Assembly (NCBI RefSeq): GCF_000217715.1
Contig: NC_015658.1
Span: 248,001-312,000 of the forward strand
From: Halopiger xanaduensis SH-6
GTDB taxonomy: Archaea > Halobacteriota > Halobacteria > Halobacteriales > Natrialbaceae
Length of the DNA stretch: 64,000 nucleotides
Reading direction: 5' to 3'
In this document: positions 6,183 to 45,371 of the stretch, one piece after another
Layout of the letters: every line of letters starts with the position of its first letter
Numbering within the stretch: position 1 is the first letter of the stretch
Notes under the pieces: generated by a model
What the model saw: the letters and a program-made list of their open reading frames with translations, nothing else
The model's database searches: none
Told to the model about the DNA's origin: nothing
Position numbers and translations under genes: made by a program

Positions 6183-6944
6183 CTACGCGTAGTTGTACTC
6201 GAGTTCGATCACGTTCGCCGCACCCTGGAGCGCGGTCAGATAGTCGCCGTAGAACTGATCGTCGTCGACGCGGTGGACGGGGCAAGAGAGACCGATCGAC
6301 GCGATACTTCGCCCGTCGTCGTCGGTGATCGGTGCAGCGAGCGATCGCAACCCGGGCCGTTGTTCCTCGTCGCTCTCCGCGTACCCTCGTTCGCGGATTG
6401 CGGTCAGTTCGTTGTCGAGGGACTCACGTGTCGTGATGGTGTTCGACGTGAGCATCGGTAAACCGTGCTCCGAAACGATGCCGTCGACCTCACACTGGGA
6501 GCGGAACGCGAGTAGCGCTTTTCCGGACGCCGTACTGTGGAGGTGGACGGGTTCGCCTTCGTGCGTGCCCAGTTCGATTCCGTTCGTTCCGCTGGCGTAG
6601 TACAGGTAGACCCCGAGGCCGTTGTTCTCGACGAACAGCGTCGCGAGTTCGCCCGTCTCCTCGGCGAGGCGATCGACCTGCGGTTGGGCGATGTCGTAGA
6701 TGGGGACGAGATTTCTCGCGTGAGAGCCGAGACTGAAAAGCGGCAGTCCGATGTGGTACTCGTCGCCGTCCTTGTCGACGTACTCGTTATGCTCGAGCGT
6801 TTTCAGGTAGTTGTACACCGACCGCTGTCCGATGTCGACCCGCTCCGTGATCTCGCCGATGGTCGCACCGTCGAGGTCGCGGATGACCTCCAAGATTTCG
6901 AAGGTGCGGCTAACGGACCGGATAGAAGACTCTGACTTAGCCAT
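6183..6944 (-). CDS. IclR family transcriptional regulator
   Basis: 253 aa from the ATG at 6944. Residues 5-70 form the winged helix (IGEITERVDIGQRSVYNYLKTL), followed by the IclR effector-binding GAF-like domain with the typical HLHSTASGKALLA and RGYAESDEEQRPGLRSLAAPI segments. It follows the GH2 gene on the same strand after 53 bases, but a TATA-like CTATATG (about 6970-6976 on the minus strand) would allow a leaderless transcript of its own. It is the local candidate regulator for the arabinosidase genes. The longer open frame to 7241 is antisense-like extension over GH2 and was not used. Confidence 0.92.
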   Translation of the reverse strand: MAKSESSIRSVSRTFEILEVIRDLDGATIGEITERVDIGQRSVYNYLKTLEHNEYVDKDGDEYHIGLPLFSLGSHARNLVPIYDIAQPQVDRLAEETGELATLFVENNGLGVYLYYASGTNGIELGTHEGEPVHLHSTASGKALLAFRSQCEVDGIVSEHGLPMLTSNTITTRESLDNELTAIRERGYAESDEEQRPGLRSLAAPITDDDGRSIASIGLSCPVHRVDDDQFYGDYLTALQGAANVIELEYNYA

Positions 6945-6997: not shown

Positions 6998-9676
6998 CTA
7001 GTCCCGGCCGGCGAGATAGTCGACGAGTCGACACAACAACCCGGTCACTACCGGGTGCGATCCGGCGGTCGTCTGCACGCGGAACGTGCACGCGACGACC
7101 CGACCGTCGTCGACGGACCGCTCGAGGAGCGGACTCCCCTGGTCGGCCAGCCACCCCCGCACGAACCCGACGTGGACGGTGTCCTCCTCGGGCGCGACGT
7201 CCGCGACGATGTCGTACGGGTAGGCGTCTTCGAACTCCCACCCGAGGTGGCGGTTCGAACAGAACGCCTCGACGAGCGGCGAATCCTGGTAGAAAAACGA
7301 CGCCGCGTTGTTCCAGCTGTCCGTCCGCGGGAGCGACCGAAACTCGAAAAACTCGGTCCCCTGCATCTCTCCCTGGCGGTCCGGGACGTGGACGGCGGTC
7401 CCCCCGTTCGAAACGAACTCGACGATCTCCGCGGTCGTCTCCGTCACGAACGCGACGTCGACGTCGGGCGTCAGGCGGTGGGTGACGTCGAATCCCACCG
7501 ACGCGAGTCTCGAGGCGAGCGTCCCCTCGGCGAACACCAGCGCTTCCGGCGGTTCGCGCGGCGACGGGACGACGACGATCGGTTCCGTACGCGCCAGTTC
7601 CGTCTCGGAGCAGCCCCGAACCGTTAGATCAGCGATCTGTACCGACTCGACCTCCGGGGCGGTAATCCGAACCGGATCCAGTTCCGCTACGGAGTGTGGC
7701 GGGGCAGTCAGCTGTCGGGTTTCGGTCGTCCCGTCGAACTCCCACTCGAGGTCTTCGACGACGCGGTCGTCGGTATCGTTGACGAGCGCGATCTCGAGTT
7801 CGCACTCCCCGCCGCCCCACGCGACGTGCGAATCGACCGTCGGGACGATCGTCACGTCGGCGTTCAGCGCGGCGACGTCGTCGTAGACGGCCTTCTCGTT
7901 TCGGCAGTAATCGAGCAGGCCGGTCACCTCCCACTCGGTATCGTACAGCTGCGTCAGCACGTAGCCGGCGATTTCCTCCCGCGTTCGAAACTCGCCGAGG
8001 ATGTGCTCGAGCGAGACGCTCGCGCGGTGTTGCCACGACGCGGCGAGGTCCTCGAGGCCGTCGAAGACGTCGTCGAGACCGGTCTCGGCGAACCGGTCCT
8101 GAACGCCGCTGGGCCGCTTGACCGGGTCGGTGAGGAACTCGTGGGAGAACCACGCCGGCTCTCGACCGTAGTGGTCGACGAGCGTGGAAACCGACGGAAA
8201 CGAGAGGGCGCCGAACTCCGAGATCACGACCGGCTCGCCGTCGTCGGACCAGCGCTGGGTCGCGTAGTTATCCCGGCGGTGGTGGAGCGTGTGTTCCAGA
8301 TTCTCGACCCACTCGGTCGCTCGGTCGGGACTGATACAGTACCAATGGTAGTCGTTGAGATCGGTCTCGACGTGGGCCCACCCGGAGTTGTCACAGACGA
8401 GGCGCGTCGGATCCCACTCCCGAACCGTTTCGACCAGCGACGCGAGGTACGTCTGCTTCGCCTCGTCGGTCCAGAGCGTCTCTTCGGCCTCGTCGTGGCC
8501 GATCCCCCACTCCTCGTGGTAGAGGCTCCAGACCACGACGCTCGGCCGGTTGTAGTCCCGTTCGACGAGCCGGCGGAGTTCGGTTTTCACCTCTTCTTTC
8601 GAGCGATCCGTATACTGTGCCGGGTTCGCCGGCTCCTCCCAGACGAGGATTCCCTGCCGGTCGGCTGCCTCGAGGAAATCGGGGTGGGCCGGTTTGAGGT
8701 GTTTGCGAACGAGGTTGAACCCGAGTTCCGAGACGCGCTCGAGTTCGCGCTCGAAGAAGCCGTCGTCCGGCGGTCGGTACAACGTCGTGGGGAAGTAGCC
8801 CTGATCGAGCACCCCGCGGAGTCGAATCGGGTCGCCGTTGAGCCGGAAGCCGTCGTCGTCGCGCTCGATCGTCCGGAGGCCGAAGTAATCCTCGTAGCGA
8901 TCGAGCACCTCGCCGTTGGCTTCGAGCGTGATCTCGAGGTCGTACAGCGCCGGGGACTCGGGCGACCAGTACGCCGGCTCGTCGAACTCGAGGACGGCGT
9001 CGTCGTCCCCGTCTATCGGATGGACGGCGATCGCTTCGACCTCCCCGTCTCGCGAGGCTCGAACGACGGCGTCGACCGCCGACGGATCACTGTCGCCGAC
9101 GTCGACATCAAGCGAGACGGCGGCGGTATCCGTCTCGAGGTCGGGCGTCACTTTCGCCCCCGAAACGTGGGTCTCCGGCCGGAACGAGAGCGTCACCGAC
9201 TGCCAGATTCCGCTGACGCGCGTAAACCACGGCTCGCCCTGCTTCCCGTGGGGAATCTCCGACAGATCCTCGGGATCGTGAACCGCGACGGTGAGCGCGT
9301 TCTCCCCGTCGGTGATCGCATCCGTGATTTCGAACTCGAAGGGCAGGTAGCCGCCGCGGTTTTCGCCGACCCGCTCCCCGTTGACCCAGACGGTCGTCCA
9401 GTAGTCGGCGGCGCCGAATTCGACGAAGACGCGCCGTGACTCGAGTTCCGCCACGTCGACCTGAAAGGTCCGATTGTACCACGCGGTTCCGGTATATCCC
9501 CGCAGGCCGTCGTCCTCCTGCCAGCTGTGCGGAACGTCGACGGGATTGGCCTCGGTGAGCCACATCGCGAGTTCCGTCTGCCATCCCTCCGTCATCCCGA
9601 TGCCGTCGGGATCGACTTCGAAGAGCCACTCCCCGTCGAGCGACCGAGAGCGGCGAAGGGACGTATCGTCGTTCAT
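6998..9676 (-). CDS. glycoside hydrolase family 2 enzyme
   Basis: 892 aa. Order: jelly-roll sugar-binding domain (about 1-170), immunoglobulin-like domain (170-275), TIM barrel (275-580), then about 300 residues of beta-rich and amidotransferase-like sequence. The nucleophile is E487 in VISEFGALS. The acid/base is E388 in WSLYHEEWG; most GH2 enzymes have Asn before this Glu, here it is His387. No signal peptide is seen. GH2 covers beta-galactosidases, glucuronidases, mannosidases and arabinosidases; context favours an enzyme acting on arabinan or pectin side chains, but the substrate is not readable. Its upstream region holds the paired operators of the fused regulator gene. Confidence 0.9.
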   Translation of the reverse strand: MNDDTSLRRSRSLDGEWLFEVDPDGIGMTEGWQTELAMWLTEANPVDVPHSWQEDDGLRGYTGTAWYNRTFQVDVAELESRRVFVEFGAADYWTTVWVNGERVGENRGGYLPFEFEITDAITDGENALTVAVHDPEDLSEIPHGKQGEPWFTRVSGIWQSVTLSFRPETHVSGAKVTPDLETDTAAVSLDVDVGDSDPSAVDAVVRASRDGEVEAIAVHPIDGDDDAVLEFDEPAYWSPESPALYDLEITLEANGEVLDRYEDYFGLRTIERDDDGFRLNGDPIRLRGVLDQGYFPTTLYRPPDDGFFERELERVSELGFNLVRKHLKPAHPDFLEAADRQGILVWEEPANPAQYTDRSKEEVKTELRRLVERDYNRPSVVVWSLYHEEWGIGHDEAEETLWTDEAKQTYLASLVETVREWDPTRLVCDNSGWAHVETDLNDYHWYCISPDRATEWVENLEHTLHHRRDNYATQRWSDDGEPVVISEFGALSFPSVSTLVDHYGREPAWFSHEFLTDPVKRPSGVQDRFAETGLDDVFDGLEDLAASWQHRASVSLEHILGEFRTREEIAGYVLTQLYDTEWEVTGLLDYCRNEKAVYDDVAALNADVTIVPTVDSHVAWGGGECELEIALVNDTDDRVVEDLEWEFDGTTETRQLTAPPHSVAELDPVRITAPEVESVQIADLTVRGCSETELARTEPIVVVPSPREPPEALVFAEGTLASRLASVGFDVTHRLTPDVDVAFVTETTAEIVEFVSNGGTAVHVPDRQGEMQGTEFFEFRSLPRTDSWNNAASFFYQDSPLVEAFCSNRHLGWEFEDAYPYDIVADVAPEEDTVHVGFVRGWLADQGSPLLERSVDDGRVVACTFRVQTTAGSHPVVTGLLCRLVDYLAGRD

Positions 9677-9800
9677 ACCGGTGTGTCTGGTTGATCGGGG
9701 TTAAATCTTCAGTATCCGCCCAGCCCAGGAGGGCCTGGCAGTCTTCGACTGACTCGAGGCCGTCCGCCCCTCCGAACAACCGCAAACGATTCGCCGTATG

Positions 9801-9821
9801 CTATTTCTCTATAAGAAATAG
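9801..9821. promoter_or_regulatory. operator-like inverted repeat, copy 1
   Basis: Perfect 8-bp palindrome: CTATTTCT (9801-9808), spacer CTATA, AGAAATAG (9814-9821). A second copy 120 bases away keeps arm sequence and spacer length. It lies 125 bases upstream of the GH2 start. Likely bound by a dimeric regulator, most simply the fused IclR protein encoded next to it (inference). Confidence 0.75.
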
Positions 9822-9923
9822 ATAGCGGCGGGATCGCATAATTACACGGGTACTGTTGTAACGAATGGTATGGTGTAACACGGAGAAATTCGGGATATTA
9901 GCGGCTCTACGGAGAAGACATTC

Positions 9924-9942
9924 TGTTTCTCATAAAGAAATA
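9924..9942. promoter_or_regulatory. operator-like inverted repeat, copy 2
   Basis: TGTTTCT (9924-9930), spacer CATAA, AGAAATA (9936-9942): six of seven arm positions pair, and the arms match copy 1 except at one base. Shared consensus TATTTCT-N5-AGAAATA. The two copies have the same 5-base spacer, as expected for one protein. Confidence 0.7.
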
Positions 9943-10220
9943 CGTTCGTGGGCGCGGTGGAAACGCCGGCGCCGTTTCGCTCCGATCGAATCGAGACCGA
10001 TCACGAACGCCGAACGAATCCGCAGTAGGGATCCGTACCAATAAGGTCGTCCAACAACGAAGAGCCACTCAATGACACACGCACGCACGGTCCGCCCCGG
10101 TCGACGACGTTCGCGCAACGGACTGGTACCCCACAGACCGGCTGGGCCGACGTGCGAGACCGGACGGTGTCGGACGGCCAGCCGATCAGAGGGGAACGAC
10201 ACGCCAGCAGACGGAGGACG

Positions 10221-12326
10221 ATGACCGACGACGAACCAACGGACGACCGCGACGGACGCGTCCTGTACAGCCCCCCGGAGTGGGCGCCGGTCCCCGGGGC
10301 GATGTACCCTCGAGTCGCTCGACTCGAGCACGACGAGAGCGGCGACCCGACGCTTCTCGCGACGTTCGAATGTTACGAGACGGCGGGCAAGAACGGCACC
10401 GACGAGCCGTATTTCCCGGTCTATCGGAGCACCGACGACGGCCGAACCTGGTCTCGCTTCGCCGAGATTCGGGACACCCAGCACGGGTGGGGACTGCGGT
10501 ACCAGCCGACGCTCTTCGAGGCCCCACAGCAGCTCGGTCCCTGGGAGGCGGGAACGGTCTTTGCCGTCGGAAACTCGATTCCGAGCGACCGCTCCGAGAC
10601 GAGCATCGACCTCTACGCGAGCGAGGACGGCGGCCGGACCTGGACGTACGTCAGCACCGTCGACACGGGCGGAAAAGCCGTCCCGGGACGCGGGGAGTCG
10701 CCGGTGTGGGCGCCCGAACTGACCGTCGATGCCGACGGCAACCTCGTCTGTTACTTCTCCGACGCGCGCCACTCGGACGACGGCTACAACCGCGTCATCG
10801 GCCACCGCGTCTCCACAGACGGCGGGCAGACGTGGGACTCCGAGACGTTCGACGTCGCGATCGCGGACGACGAGTCGACGCCGGGAATGCCGACGATCAC
10901 GAAACTCCCGACGGGCCGGTACCTCCTCGCGTACTTTATCGGCGGGCGGCGGTACGGGGGCGGCGTGTACGTCAAAACGTCGCCGAACGGCCGCGACTGG
11001 GGCGCACCCGACGACGTCGGATCGCCCGTCCGGACCGACGACGGGCGCCAGCTCATCGAGGGGCCCTACGCGACCTGGGTCCCCTACGGGGACGACGATG
11101 GGACGATTCTGGTCGCAGGAAAGACGCTCCGCGACCAGAACCGAAATCGCGTTTCCGAAAGCGGGACGGTCCTGCTCGCCTCGAGCGATCTCTCCGGCAC
11201 GGAGACGTGGGAACCGGTTTCGGCACCGCTGTGGTACGACGACGAGCTCGAAACCGGCCACCGGTCCGTCGGGTGGACGAGCGCGTTGCTCCCGTCGGCG
11301 GACGGGACGGCGCTCCTGCACCTGACCTCGACGTACGACGGCCACGGCAAAACCGAGATCAGGTACGCGCGAGCGCCGCTGGAATCGCTTTTCGACTACG
11401 ACTCGAGCGACCGTGCGGCGGAGGGGGCGTCGCAGCGACGGGCCGGCGATCGTTCATCGTCGTCCTCGCCGTCGCCGTCACCGTCGCAGGACCCGCCCGG
11501 AGCGGTCCGACGGTCGCGGGAGTCGACGCAGTCGGCGGAATCGCACCACGTCAAATCGATCGTCAAAGCGTTCGAACTCCTCGAGACGCTCGAGCAGACG
11601 GGCGAGATCGGCGTGACCGAACTGTCCAGACAGACCGGCATCGCGAAAAGTTCAGTCTACAAGTACCTCGACACGCTGCGACACCTCGGATACGTCACGA
11701 AATCCGACGGCGCCTACGCACCGTCGCTGCGACTGTTCCACTTCGGGCAACGCGTCGTCTCTCGCCACGAGGCCTACCGCATCGCACAGCCGGAACTCGA
11801 CGCGCTGGCCGAGAAAACCGGCGAAGTGGTCTCGCTGATCGTCGAAGAGGACGGCGATGCGGTGTATCTCTACTCCACGTCGCCCCACGACGACCGGACC
11901 ATCGAAGAGGGGAGCCGAATGCCGATCCACGCGTCGACGGGCGGGAAGGCGCTCCTCTCGTACCGATCGCGGGAGTACGTCGACGACATCCTCGAGAACA
12001 CCGTGTTCGATATCGATCGCCAGAACTTCTACGCCGACCTGAAGCAAGCGCGCGACAACCGCGTCATCATCGATCGGGAAACGAACACGCAACAGTACAA
12101 CGCAGGCGTGCTCGAAAAGCGCTGGCACTCCTTCGACCAGCAGGCGGAGACGAATCAACTCTATCGGATCGCCGTTCCGATTCGAGATGCAGATGACAAG
12201 GGGGTCGCCGCCATAGAAGTCCTCGGTTCGGAGTTGCAATACGATTCCCGACGCCTCCAGGAGGAGATCGTGCCGCTGCTGGTTTCGGCCGGGAAATCGC
12301 TCGAAACTGAACTCTTGCGCACCTAG
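10221..12326 (+). CDS. sialidase/GH93-like beta-propeller fused to IclR regulator
   Basis: 701 aa from the ATG at 10221, which has GGAGG at 10213-10217; an upstream in-frame start at 10152 adds 23 unlikely residues. Residues 1-391 are a BNR/Asp-box propeller: boxes at STDDGRTW (70-77), SEDGGRTW (134-141) and STDGGQTW (198-205), with the YPRVARL opening typical of sialidase-fold glycosidases such as GH93 exo-arabinanases. A Ser/Pro-rich linker (392-441) leads without a stop into a complete IclR protein: winged helix (VTELSRQTGIAKSSVYKYL) and effector domain (442-701). There is no signal peptide, so the protein is cytoplasmic. The propeller may be an enzyme or a sugar sensor for the regulator; the arabinosidase context favours arabino-oligosaccharides (inference). 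Confidence 0.88.
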   Translation: MTDDEPTDDRDGRVLYSPPEWAPVPGAMYPRVARLEHDESGDPTLLATFECYETAGKNGTDEPYFPVYRSTDDGRTWSRFAEIRDTQHGWGLRYQPTLFEAPQQLGPWEAGTVFAVGNSIPSDRSETSIDLYASEDGGRTWTYVSTVDTGGKAVPGRGESPVWAPELTVDADGNLVCYFSDARHSDDGYNRVIGHRVSTDGGQTWDSETFDVAIADDESTPGMPTITKLPTGRYLLAYFIGGRRYGGGVYVKTSPNGRDWGAPDDVGSPVRTDDGRQLIEGPYATWVPYGDDDGTILVAGKTLRDQNRNRVSESGTVLLASSDLSGTETWEPVSAPLWYDDELETGHRSVGWTSALLPSADGTALLHLTSTYDGHGKTEIRYARAPLESLFDYDSSDRAAEGASQRRAGDRSSSSSPSPSPSQDPPGAVRRSRESTQSAESHHVKSIVKAFELLETLEQTGEIGVTELSRQTGIAKSSVYKYLDTLRHLGYVTKSDGAYAPSLRLFHFGQRVVSRHEAYRIAQPELDALAEKTGEVVSLIVEEDGDAVYLYSTSPHDDRTIEEGSRMPIHASTGGKALLSYRSREYVDDILENTVFDIDRQNFYADLKQARDNRVIIDRETNTQQYNAGVLEKRWHSFDQQAETNQLYRIAVPIRDADDKGVAAIEVLGSELQYDSRRLQEEIVPLLVSAGKSLETELLRT

Positions 12327-44326: not shown

Positions 44327-45100
44327 ATGAACGAGCCCGATCAAGGAAACTCCGACCGGCGAATCCAATCGCTCGAACGGGGGTTCGAGGTACTCGAGTA
44401 CCTCTACCGGGAAGGGGAGACCACCGTCTCCGAGCTGGCGGCTGCGCTAGATCTATCGACGAGCACGGCTCATATCTATTTGAAAACGCTCAGTGATCTC
44501 GGCTACGTGAAAAAAGCGGCGTCGAAATACTCGCTCAGCCACCGCTTTCTTCGATTCGGTACAAAGACGCGAAAGCAGGCGGATATCTATCAAGCGGCGC
44601 TCTCAGAAGTCGATAAACTGGCCGACGAAACGAACGAAGTTTCCGCACTCGGCGTTCCGGAGCGGGGAAAACGAGTCCTGTTATACAAGTCGGAGAGTTC
44701 CGAGGCAGTATACGATAATCCGCCAGCGGGCGAGTACACGTACATGCATTGGACCGCGCTCGGAAAAGCGATACTCGGTCACTTGCCGCGCGATCGGGTC
44801 GAAGAAATAATCGATCAACACGGACTCCCCGCCAGAACCCAACAGACGATCACGGAAGAGTCCGAACTGTTTGACGAGTTAGCGACGATCAACGAAACCG
44901 GGTACGCCGTCGAAGACGAAGAGCGGTGGAACGGGATTCGGTCGGTTGCAGTGCCGATCCTCGATAACGAAACTGTCGTCGGCTCAATTTCTGTCTCAGG
45001 TCCGAAAAATAGATTCGACCGAGATCGGATCGAATCCGAATTAGTCACCGATCTTATGCAGTCAAAAAACGTAATTGAAGTCAGATTAGCGCACGAATGA
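44327..45100 (+). CDS. IclR family transcriptional regulator
   Basis: 257 aa, complete. Winged helix at 12-75 (TVSELAAALDLSTSTAHIYLKTLSDLGYVKK); effector domain with YMHWTALGKAILGHL and the ETGYAVEDEERWNGIRSVAVPI segment. AT-rich flanks and slightly less GC-biased codons than its neighbours suggest transfer. No target gene adjoins; the truncated dehydratase/IclR scar 2.7 kb to the left hints that a sugar-acid locus once stood here. Confidence 0.92.
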   Translation: MNEPDQGNSDRRIQSLERGFEVLEYLYREGETTVSELAAALDLSTSTAHIYLKTLSDLGYVKKAASKYSLSHRFLRFGTKTRKQADIYQAALSEVDKLADETNEVSALGVPERGKRVLLYKSESSEAVYDNPPAGEYTYMHWTALGKAILGHLPRDRVEEIIDQHGLPARTQQTITEESELFDELATINETGYAVEDEERWNGIRSVAVPILDNETVVGSISVSGPKNRFDRDRIESELVTDLMQSKNVIEVRLAHE

Positions 45101-45371
45101 TCGCTTTCCACAACGCCGCTGTGATGGATTTTCTTCCCGCGTTCATCCTGAAACAGACACTCTAGATGAGTGATTTTTACTGTATAGTGGCAGTGTACTG
45201 AATAGTTGTGATTATAGGATAATTGCCAAGATAAAGTTGGAACTATTCATATTATATTTAGTTGATAATTTCATCCGGAATGGCCCTCAGTTGCTGTGAA
45301 AGCATCGCCATCCATAGTTCGATGAAGCCACACCTATCAGTCCATTACAAGCATACAAGTGTAATTTGAGA

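Follow-up and report, generated by a model that had tools for sequence, protein, structure and literature searches.

Two palindromes located between the GH2 glycosidase gene and the gene for a GH93-like propeller-IclR fusion of Halopiger xanaduensis SH-6 were found to form the two ends of a conserved element with three parts. The preliminary description of the analyzed DNA, a window of 64,000 nucleotides, included neither the third palindrome (9842-9861) nor a layout that is fixed to within a few bp. Taken together, the results are best explained, in our view with moderate confidence, by a fusion protein that would bind the outer sites and a second IclR regulator that would bind the core, both controlling arabinan/pentose genes. 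This explanation builds on the three-part anatomy, the fixed spacing and polarity, the regulon, the conservation, the co-occurrence of the element with the IclR part of the fusion and the loss of catalytic residues, all of which were computed.

Anatomy of the element and its copies in the genome

Two palindromes with common arms and a 5-base spacer had been described for the window, and both were present at the positions given in Table 1. The proximal palindrome, CTATTTCT-CTATA-AGAAATAG, has perfect 8-bp arms, and the distal one, TGTTTCT-CATAA-AGAAATA, has 7-bp arms with one non-complementary pair. The start-to-start spacing of the two outer 19-mers was 122 bp. From the start codon of GH2, which is at 9676 on the minus strand, they were 125 and 248 bases away, in agreement with the 125–250 bases proposed before. 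When up to one mismatch was allowed, the window contained only these two sites, and 100 dinucleotide shuffles of the window contained none of the outer type. The exact outer palindrome matched once in the whole 4.36-Mb genome. With up to one mismatch, the genome contained the two window sites and a site at C3:3349039 and no others; at three mismatches, the pair C1:243156 and C1:243277 appeared among scattered other matches.

Table 1. Features of the GH2/fusion intergenic region and its neighboring genes in the window
Feature	Position	Strand	Remarks
Proximal outer palindrome, CTATTTCT-N5-AGAAATAG	9801..9821		Core 15-mer TTTCTCTATAAGAAA at 9804-9818; IclR group-1 type
Distal outer palindrome, TGTTTCT-N5-AGAAATA	9924..9942		Core 15-mer at 9926-9940
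Core palindrome, TTACACGGGTACTGTTGTAA (consensus TTACRNNNRTAYNNNYGTAA)	9842..9861	-	Start-to-start 43 bp to proximal and 79 bp to distal palindrome, minus-strand reading
Putative GH2 TATA box, TTTAA within conserved ATACTGAAGATTTAACC	9701..9705	-	Predicted promoter role
GH2 glycosidase, predicted target gene	6998..9676	-	Pfam GH2 domains; element stays before GH2 in G392, Halosolutus, G062 and G105
XacR-like IclR regulator	6183..6944	-	53 bp downstream of GH2; candidate binder of core palindrome
GH93 exo-arabinanase-like propeller + IclR fusion (HTH_IclR + IclR_C)	10221..12326	+	Both catalytic Glu lost; candidate outer-site binder

Paired copies were searched over the 4.36-Mb genome with the pattern TTYCYN5RGRAA occurring twice, 103–133 bp between starts. 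Exactly three places were identified and none with the reversed-pattern control. Element A was the window pair, element B was at C1:243158-243293 and element C at C3:3348920-3349055, and their outer spacings were 122, 121, and 121 bp, respectively. The earlier judgment that two matching palindromes would be unlikely to arise by chance was borne out by the shuffles and this search. Although the palindromes lie in an AT-rich stretch within a G+C-rich genome, it is extremely improbable that they are chance AT-rich repeats, RNA hairpins or terminators. Chance was rejected on the basis of the shuffles, the three fixed-spacing pairs found against no control match, the cross-genus conservation and the result with simulated sequence given below. 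Neither sequence nor position supported a hairpin or terminator, as the palindromes are AT-rich, lie upstream of promoters and lack a T run.

Alignment of the three paired regions identified the 20-bp third palindrome between the outer two, which was TTACACGGGTACTGTTGTAA in A, TTACAACAGTACATTCGTAA in B and TTACAAAAATACGATTGTAA in C. In all three elements, the core was 43 bp, start to start, from one outer site and 78–79 bp from the other. Because these distances are unequal, the module has a direction. Its 43-bp side faced the ABC transporter in B and gfo6 in C, and the module was inverted in A, where it faced GH2 on the minus strand. Element B was upstream of the gene for the substrate-binding protein of a PepT-type ABC transporter, and the ATPase gene of this transporter extends into the start of the window. 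Element C had an SDR gene on one side and, on the other, a gene whose product was 81% identical to the D-xylose 1-dehydrogenase Gfo6 of Halostagnicola. Window genes include those for GH2, a GH127 beta-L-arabinofuranosidase, arabinofuranosidases and two IclR-type regulators. Elements A–C thus mark an arabinan/pentose regulon, and the genome-wide motif scan that the preliminary description had called for did reveal further pairs upstream of sugar genes, namely those of the ABC transporter and of the D-xylose dehydrogenase Gfo6.

The conserved ATACTGAAGATTTAACC was about 27 nt before the GH2 ATG and was identical in Halosolutus; G344 provided further evidence. It is plausibly the TATA box of the GH2 mRNA, which is probably leaderless. 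The distance from this TATA-like box to the middle of the proximal palindrome was about 108 bp, which would fit an activator acting from upstream better than a block of the promoter. On the other side of the intergenic region, a possible ORF of 50 codons (10073-10224) was found behind a TATA-like CCAATAAGG, and its stop codon extends into the ATG with which the fusion gene begins. This ORF could be a chance occurrence or a short leader ORF.

Conservation among haloarchaea and spacing rule

A congeneric species (G392) had the three-part layout at each of the three loci. Genomes of other genera contained one or two elements. The layout upstream of GH2 was also found in Halosolutus gelatinilyticus (G378), G062, and G105. 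The second element of G062 and G105 was upstream of an operon for proteins that we read from their sequences as an SGNH-like esterase and a TIM-barrel isomerase-like protein. In G344 and G391, the element adjoined an unfused ortholog of the IclR part of the fusion; in G391 it was upstream of a GH51 gene and in G344 the nearest called gene on the facing side was 1.7 kb away. A degenerate element was located between two converging genes in G411.

Of 14 modules, 11 had a core-to-proximal distance of 43 bp and the remaining three had distances of 44, 44, and 45 bp. The core-to-distal distances of the same modules ranged from 78 to 82 bp. A relaxed scan for the triad gave no match in 9.8 Mb of simulated sequence. 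When the window region was aligned with the orthologous region of Halosolutus, all three palindromes as well as the TATA region stood out, and the remaining intergenic DNA was diverged. The outer sites were mostly 125–390 bp upstream of start codons.

The polarity of the module and the synteny in G062 and G105 point to the GH2-IclR operon, not the fusion gene, as the target. The preliminary description had placed the palindromes upstream of the fusion gene, which is correct loosely, in that the intergenic region is common to both genes; the element itself faces GH2. Control of the divergent fusion gene by the module, alone or together with GH2, is rather improbable. Such autoregulation is usual for IclR-family regulators (PMC8222616), and the two genes share the intergenic region in both the window and Halosolutus. 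However, owing to its asymmetric layout the module has its proximal palindrome on the GH2 side, just as it has it at the target gene in every copy with a clear target, and in Halosolutus about 460 bp lie between the distal palindrome and the start of the fusion gene. Moreover, in G062 and G105 the element remains at GH2, with a GH51 gene between it and the fusion gene. The fusion gene was rejected as the target on these grounds of polarity and synteny.

Several related arrangements were observed. A similar element with 89/46 spacing was found in G270, which has no ortholog of the fusion. A second spacing class occurred in genera g15 (L082, L083, L084, and L091) and g5 (L085 and L086), with distal distances of 71–72 bp and core-to-proximal distances of 43–44 bp. 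These modules were mostly 190–290 bp upstream of other conserved genes, which in three g15 genomes encode a SelA-like PLP enzyme and in G350 and G231 a 333-aa protein. The distal spacings of 71–72 and 78–82 bp differ by about one helical turn, and the three-part architecture may be a reusable design. In addition, conserved GTTCCC-N5-GGGAAC pairs, usually 127 bp apart and without a TTAC core between them, were found at L026-L033, mostly in genus g43. They are probably operators of another IclR regulator, and no match to the g43 pairs was found among the plasmid records searched. Matches of the pair search to TTCCTTCGCAAGGAA were set aside, as they resemble tRNA-associated sequence.

Candidate regulators of the outer and core palindromes

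The C-terminal part of the fusion matched HTH_IclR (2.2e-13) and IclR_C (4e-19), both above the Pfam cut-off. Its propeller belongs to the six-bladed GH93 family (3a71, 1e-57; 2w5n, 7e-52), whose catalytic residues are E170, E242, and Y337 (PMC11813348). In the alignment, E170/E242 were replaced in all six fusions (A/F in three, V/Y in two and D/H in one) and kept in all five stand-alone relatives as well as both reference structures. In the window fusion, whose GH93-like domain spans 10221-11430, the replacements were A and F. The full-length fusion was conserved, with identities of 80% in Halosolutus and 93% in G392. Since the fusion combines a catalytically dead arabinanase with a DNA-binding regulator and is encoded in an arabinan cluster, the GH93-like part would most simply serve as a sugar sensor. 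A search of the open-access literature found no description of a GH93-IclR fusion.

The 28 outer sites gave the consensus GTTTCTYAWTRAGAAAC. The published consensus for IclR group-1 operators is GKTYCRYW3-4RYGRAMC (PMC8222616). With its GTTTC-N7-GAAAC arrangement, the outer consensus matches the group-1 palindrome GKTYC-N7/8-GRAMC in both half-sites (PMC8222616); its position 6 is T, where group-1 has R. Commonly, but not obligatorily, group-1 sites are centered 20–80 nt upstream and tandem sites are 18–22 nt apart (PMC8222616), whereas the outer sites lie farther upstream and their pairs are 121–125 bp apart.

Orthologs of the IclR part of the fusion (at least 55% identity) were identified in 8 of 125 family genomes, and all eight carried the element, although G344, G391, and G411 were assessed with a relaxed scan restricted to the surroundings of the fusion-IclR gene and the other genomes with an exact-pattern scan. 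The exact pattern with this spacing class occurred in five of the eight ortholog genomes and in none of the other 117. The eight genomes represent five genera and are not phylogenetically independent. The recognition helix KSSVYKYLDTL was invariant in all eight fusion-type proteins. Four further genomes encode IclRs that are 46–48% identical to the fusion and have the same recognition helix, and no such pairs were found near them. One IclR of this kind, in Natronorubrum aibiense (L138, L139), was 48% identical to the IclR part of the fusion, shared its recognition helix and was encoded divergently to a GH2 gene, in a cluster of the galactose type with galactonate dehydratase and KDG/KDGal kinase. 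It is possibly of the unfused ancestor type of the fusion.

Binding of the outer palindromes by the XacR-like IclR, with the fusion having other targets or being only a co-sensor, is unlikely, although this gene is probably in one operon with the target GH2 and was also found in all eight element-bearing genomes. Its relatives (44–60% identity) are in oxidative pentose clusters of Halostagnicola, Haloterrigena, and Haloarcula pelagica alongside gfo6 and/or SDR, FAH-type and ALDH genes, a position that agrees with that of XacR. Three citing papers describe XacR of Haloferax volcanii as an IclR activator of pentose genes (PMC11519228, PMC10448506, PMC6085418). However, at least 11 genomes contained orthologs of the XacR-like gene (55–61% identity) and lacked this element class. 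In G344, G391, and G411, the element adjoins the fusion-IclR gene and the XacR-like gene (55–57% identity) is elsewhere in the genome. The helix of the XacR-like protein also varied, from GQRSVYNYL in the window to GRSAVYNYL in Halosolutus, while the outer operator and the fusion helix were unchanged. Given the co-occurrence in eight of eight genomes, the fixed recognition helix, the IclR group-1 consensus and the XacR-like genomes without the element, the fusion is the best candidate for binding the outer palindromes. This evidence from sequence comparison is suggestive, not proof, and favors the regulatory role that the preliminary description had given to the fusion.

The core consensus TTACRNNNRTAYNNNYGTAA had 21 exact sites in the genome, many near carbohydrate genes, and none with the control. 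The window contained two of them, at 9842-9861 and 45345-45364, the latter about 245 bp after an IclR gene (44327-45100). Among 116 Halobacteria genomes, 74 contained a total of 476 core sites. The number of core sites correlated with the number of IclR genes (Pearson 0.66 overall and 0.91 for the 28 genomes of the family). Of 18 genomes that lack IclR genes, 17 also lacked core sites. In G057, 13 of 35 core sites were within 1 kb of an IclR gene, with 1.8 expected when the sizes of two contigs are approximated. As the site number tracks the IclR gene number and the sites of G057 lie close to IclR genes, the core is probably recognized as an operator by one class of IclR regulators in haloarchaea, including the XacR-like one. 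Another factor may bind the core, which matches neither published IclR consensus type (PMC8222616) and is absent from some IclR-rich genomes. The numbers of core sites and IclR genes may also both simply follow the amount of sugar metabolism. Binding of the core by every IclR is not general, as is evident from genomes such as G073, in which exact core sites are absent despite 17 IclR genes. A search of the open-access literature found no description of the core motif.

The fixed spacing, as if spanned by one complex, would also fit a single regulator, or a single IclR in multimeric form, on all three palindromes, with the core as a variant site. This is improbable, since the core differs from the outer sequence as well as from the published types and occurs so widely. 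Moreover, 52 core sites without TTTC partners showed no enrichment of palindromes at the triad offset, although degenerate ones could escape such a search. They gave no support for a flanking palindrome pair at every core site.

Proposed mechanism and comparison with known systems

We propose that the element, about 140 bp long and located upstream, works as one composite module to regulate the gene toward which its proximal end points. In this module, two IclR-type palindromes (GTTTCTYAWTRAGAAAC) 121–125 bp apart flank a shared 20-bp core (TTACRNNNRTAYNNNYGTAA) positioned 43–45 bp from the proximal and 78–82 bp from the distal palindrome. The pseudo-GH93-IclR fusion would occupy the outer palindromes, one dimer each, and the dimers might be bridged as a tetramer with the DNA between them bent or looped. 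A different IclR-type regulator would occupy the core, and the most likely one is the XacR-like IclR whose gene follows GH2. Both regulators would control, and most likely activate, the GH2-IclR operon, the PepT-type ABC transporter and gfo6, which are genes for uptake and breakdown of arabinan and pentoses. The trigger would be an arabino-oligosaccharide bound to the catalytically dead GH93 domain. The cooperative binding suggested in the preliminary description agrees with the paired architecture, which is of the cooperative type; binding itself is predicted.

A broader interpretation is offered only tentatively. The dead exo-arabinanase-IclR might sense arabino-oligosaccharides and its paired operators might bend or loop DNA round the core of the second regulator, so that a fixed three-site module builds pathway-specific sugar-gene promoters. 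The second spacing class (71–72 instead of 78–82 bp), which occurs in other genera, might serve a different pathway.

Very few operators of archaeal sugar regulators are known, and the results supply a directly testable consensus, spacing rule, regulon and candidate regulator. The three-part module, the wide core motif and the dead enzyme as putative sensor are new here. If true, a transcription factor with a dead polysaccharide-degrading enzyme as its sensor would be a clear archaeal example of an enzyme turned sugar sensor. The core motif, with hundreds of copies across haloarchaea, could make many sugar regulons predictable.

Similar to bacterial IclR group-1 systems, the outer operators have palindromic GTTTC/GAAAC half-sites with a 7-base center, an IclR is encoded in the cluster and the regulon concerns sugar catabolism. 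Different from these systems, in which tandem sites are 18–22 bp apart and mostly 20–80 bp upstream, the archaeal pairs are 121–125 bp apart around a different core palindrome and mostly 125–390 bp upstream. XacR of H. volcanii, reportedly described by Johnsen in 2015, is similar in being an IclR of an oxidative pentose cluster that, according to the papers cited above, acts at upstream promoter regions. Relative to the XacR system as those papers present it, two IclR-type regulators and a three-palindrome module are found here. Similar to the GH93 exo-1,5-alpha-L-arabinanases Abnx (3a71/3a72) and Arb93A (2w5n), with which it aligns over about 290 residues (1e-57), the fusion has a GH93 propeller. 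Different from them, it lacks E170 and E242, is joined to an IclR regulator and has no evident signal peptide. RsgI-type anti-sigma factors of Clostridium use glycosidase-like domains to sense polysaccharide and control glycosidase genes. The fusion may be analogous in its glycosidase-like sensor domain; RsgI-type proteins, however, are membrane anti-sigma factors, whereas the fusion would be an IclR protein that binds DNA directly.
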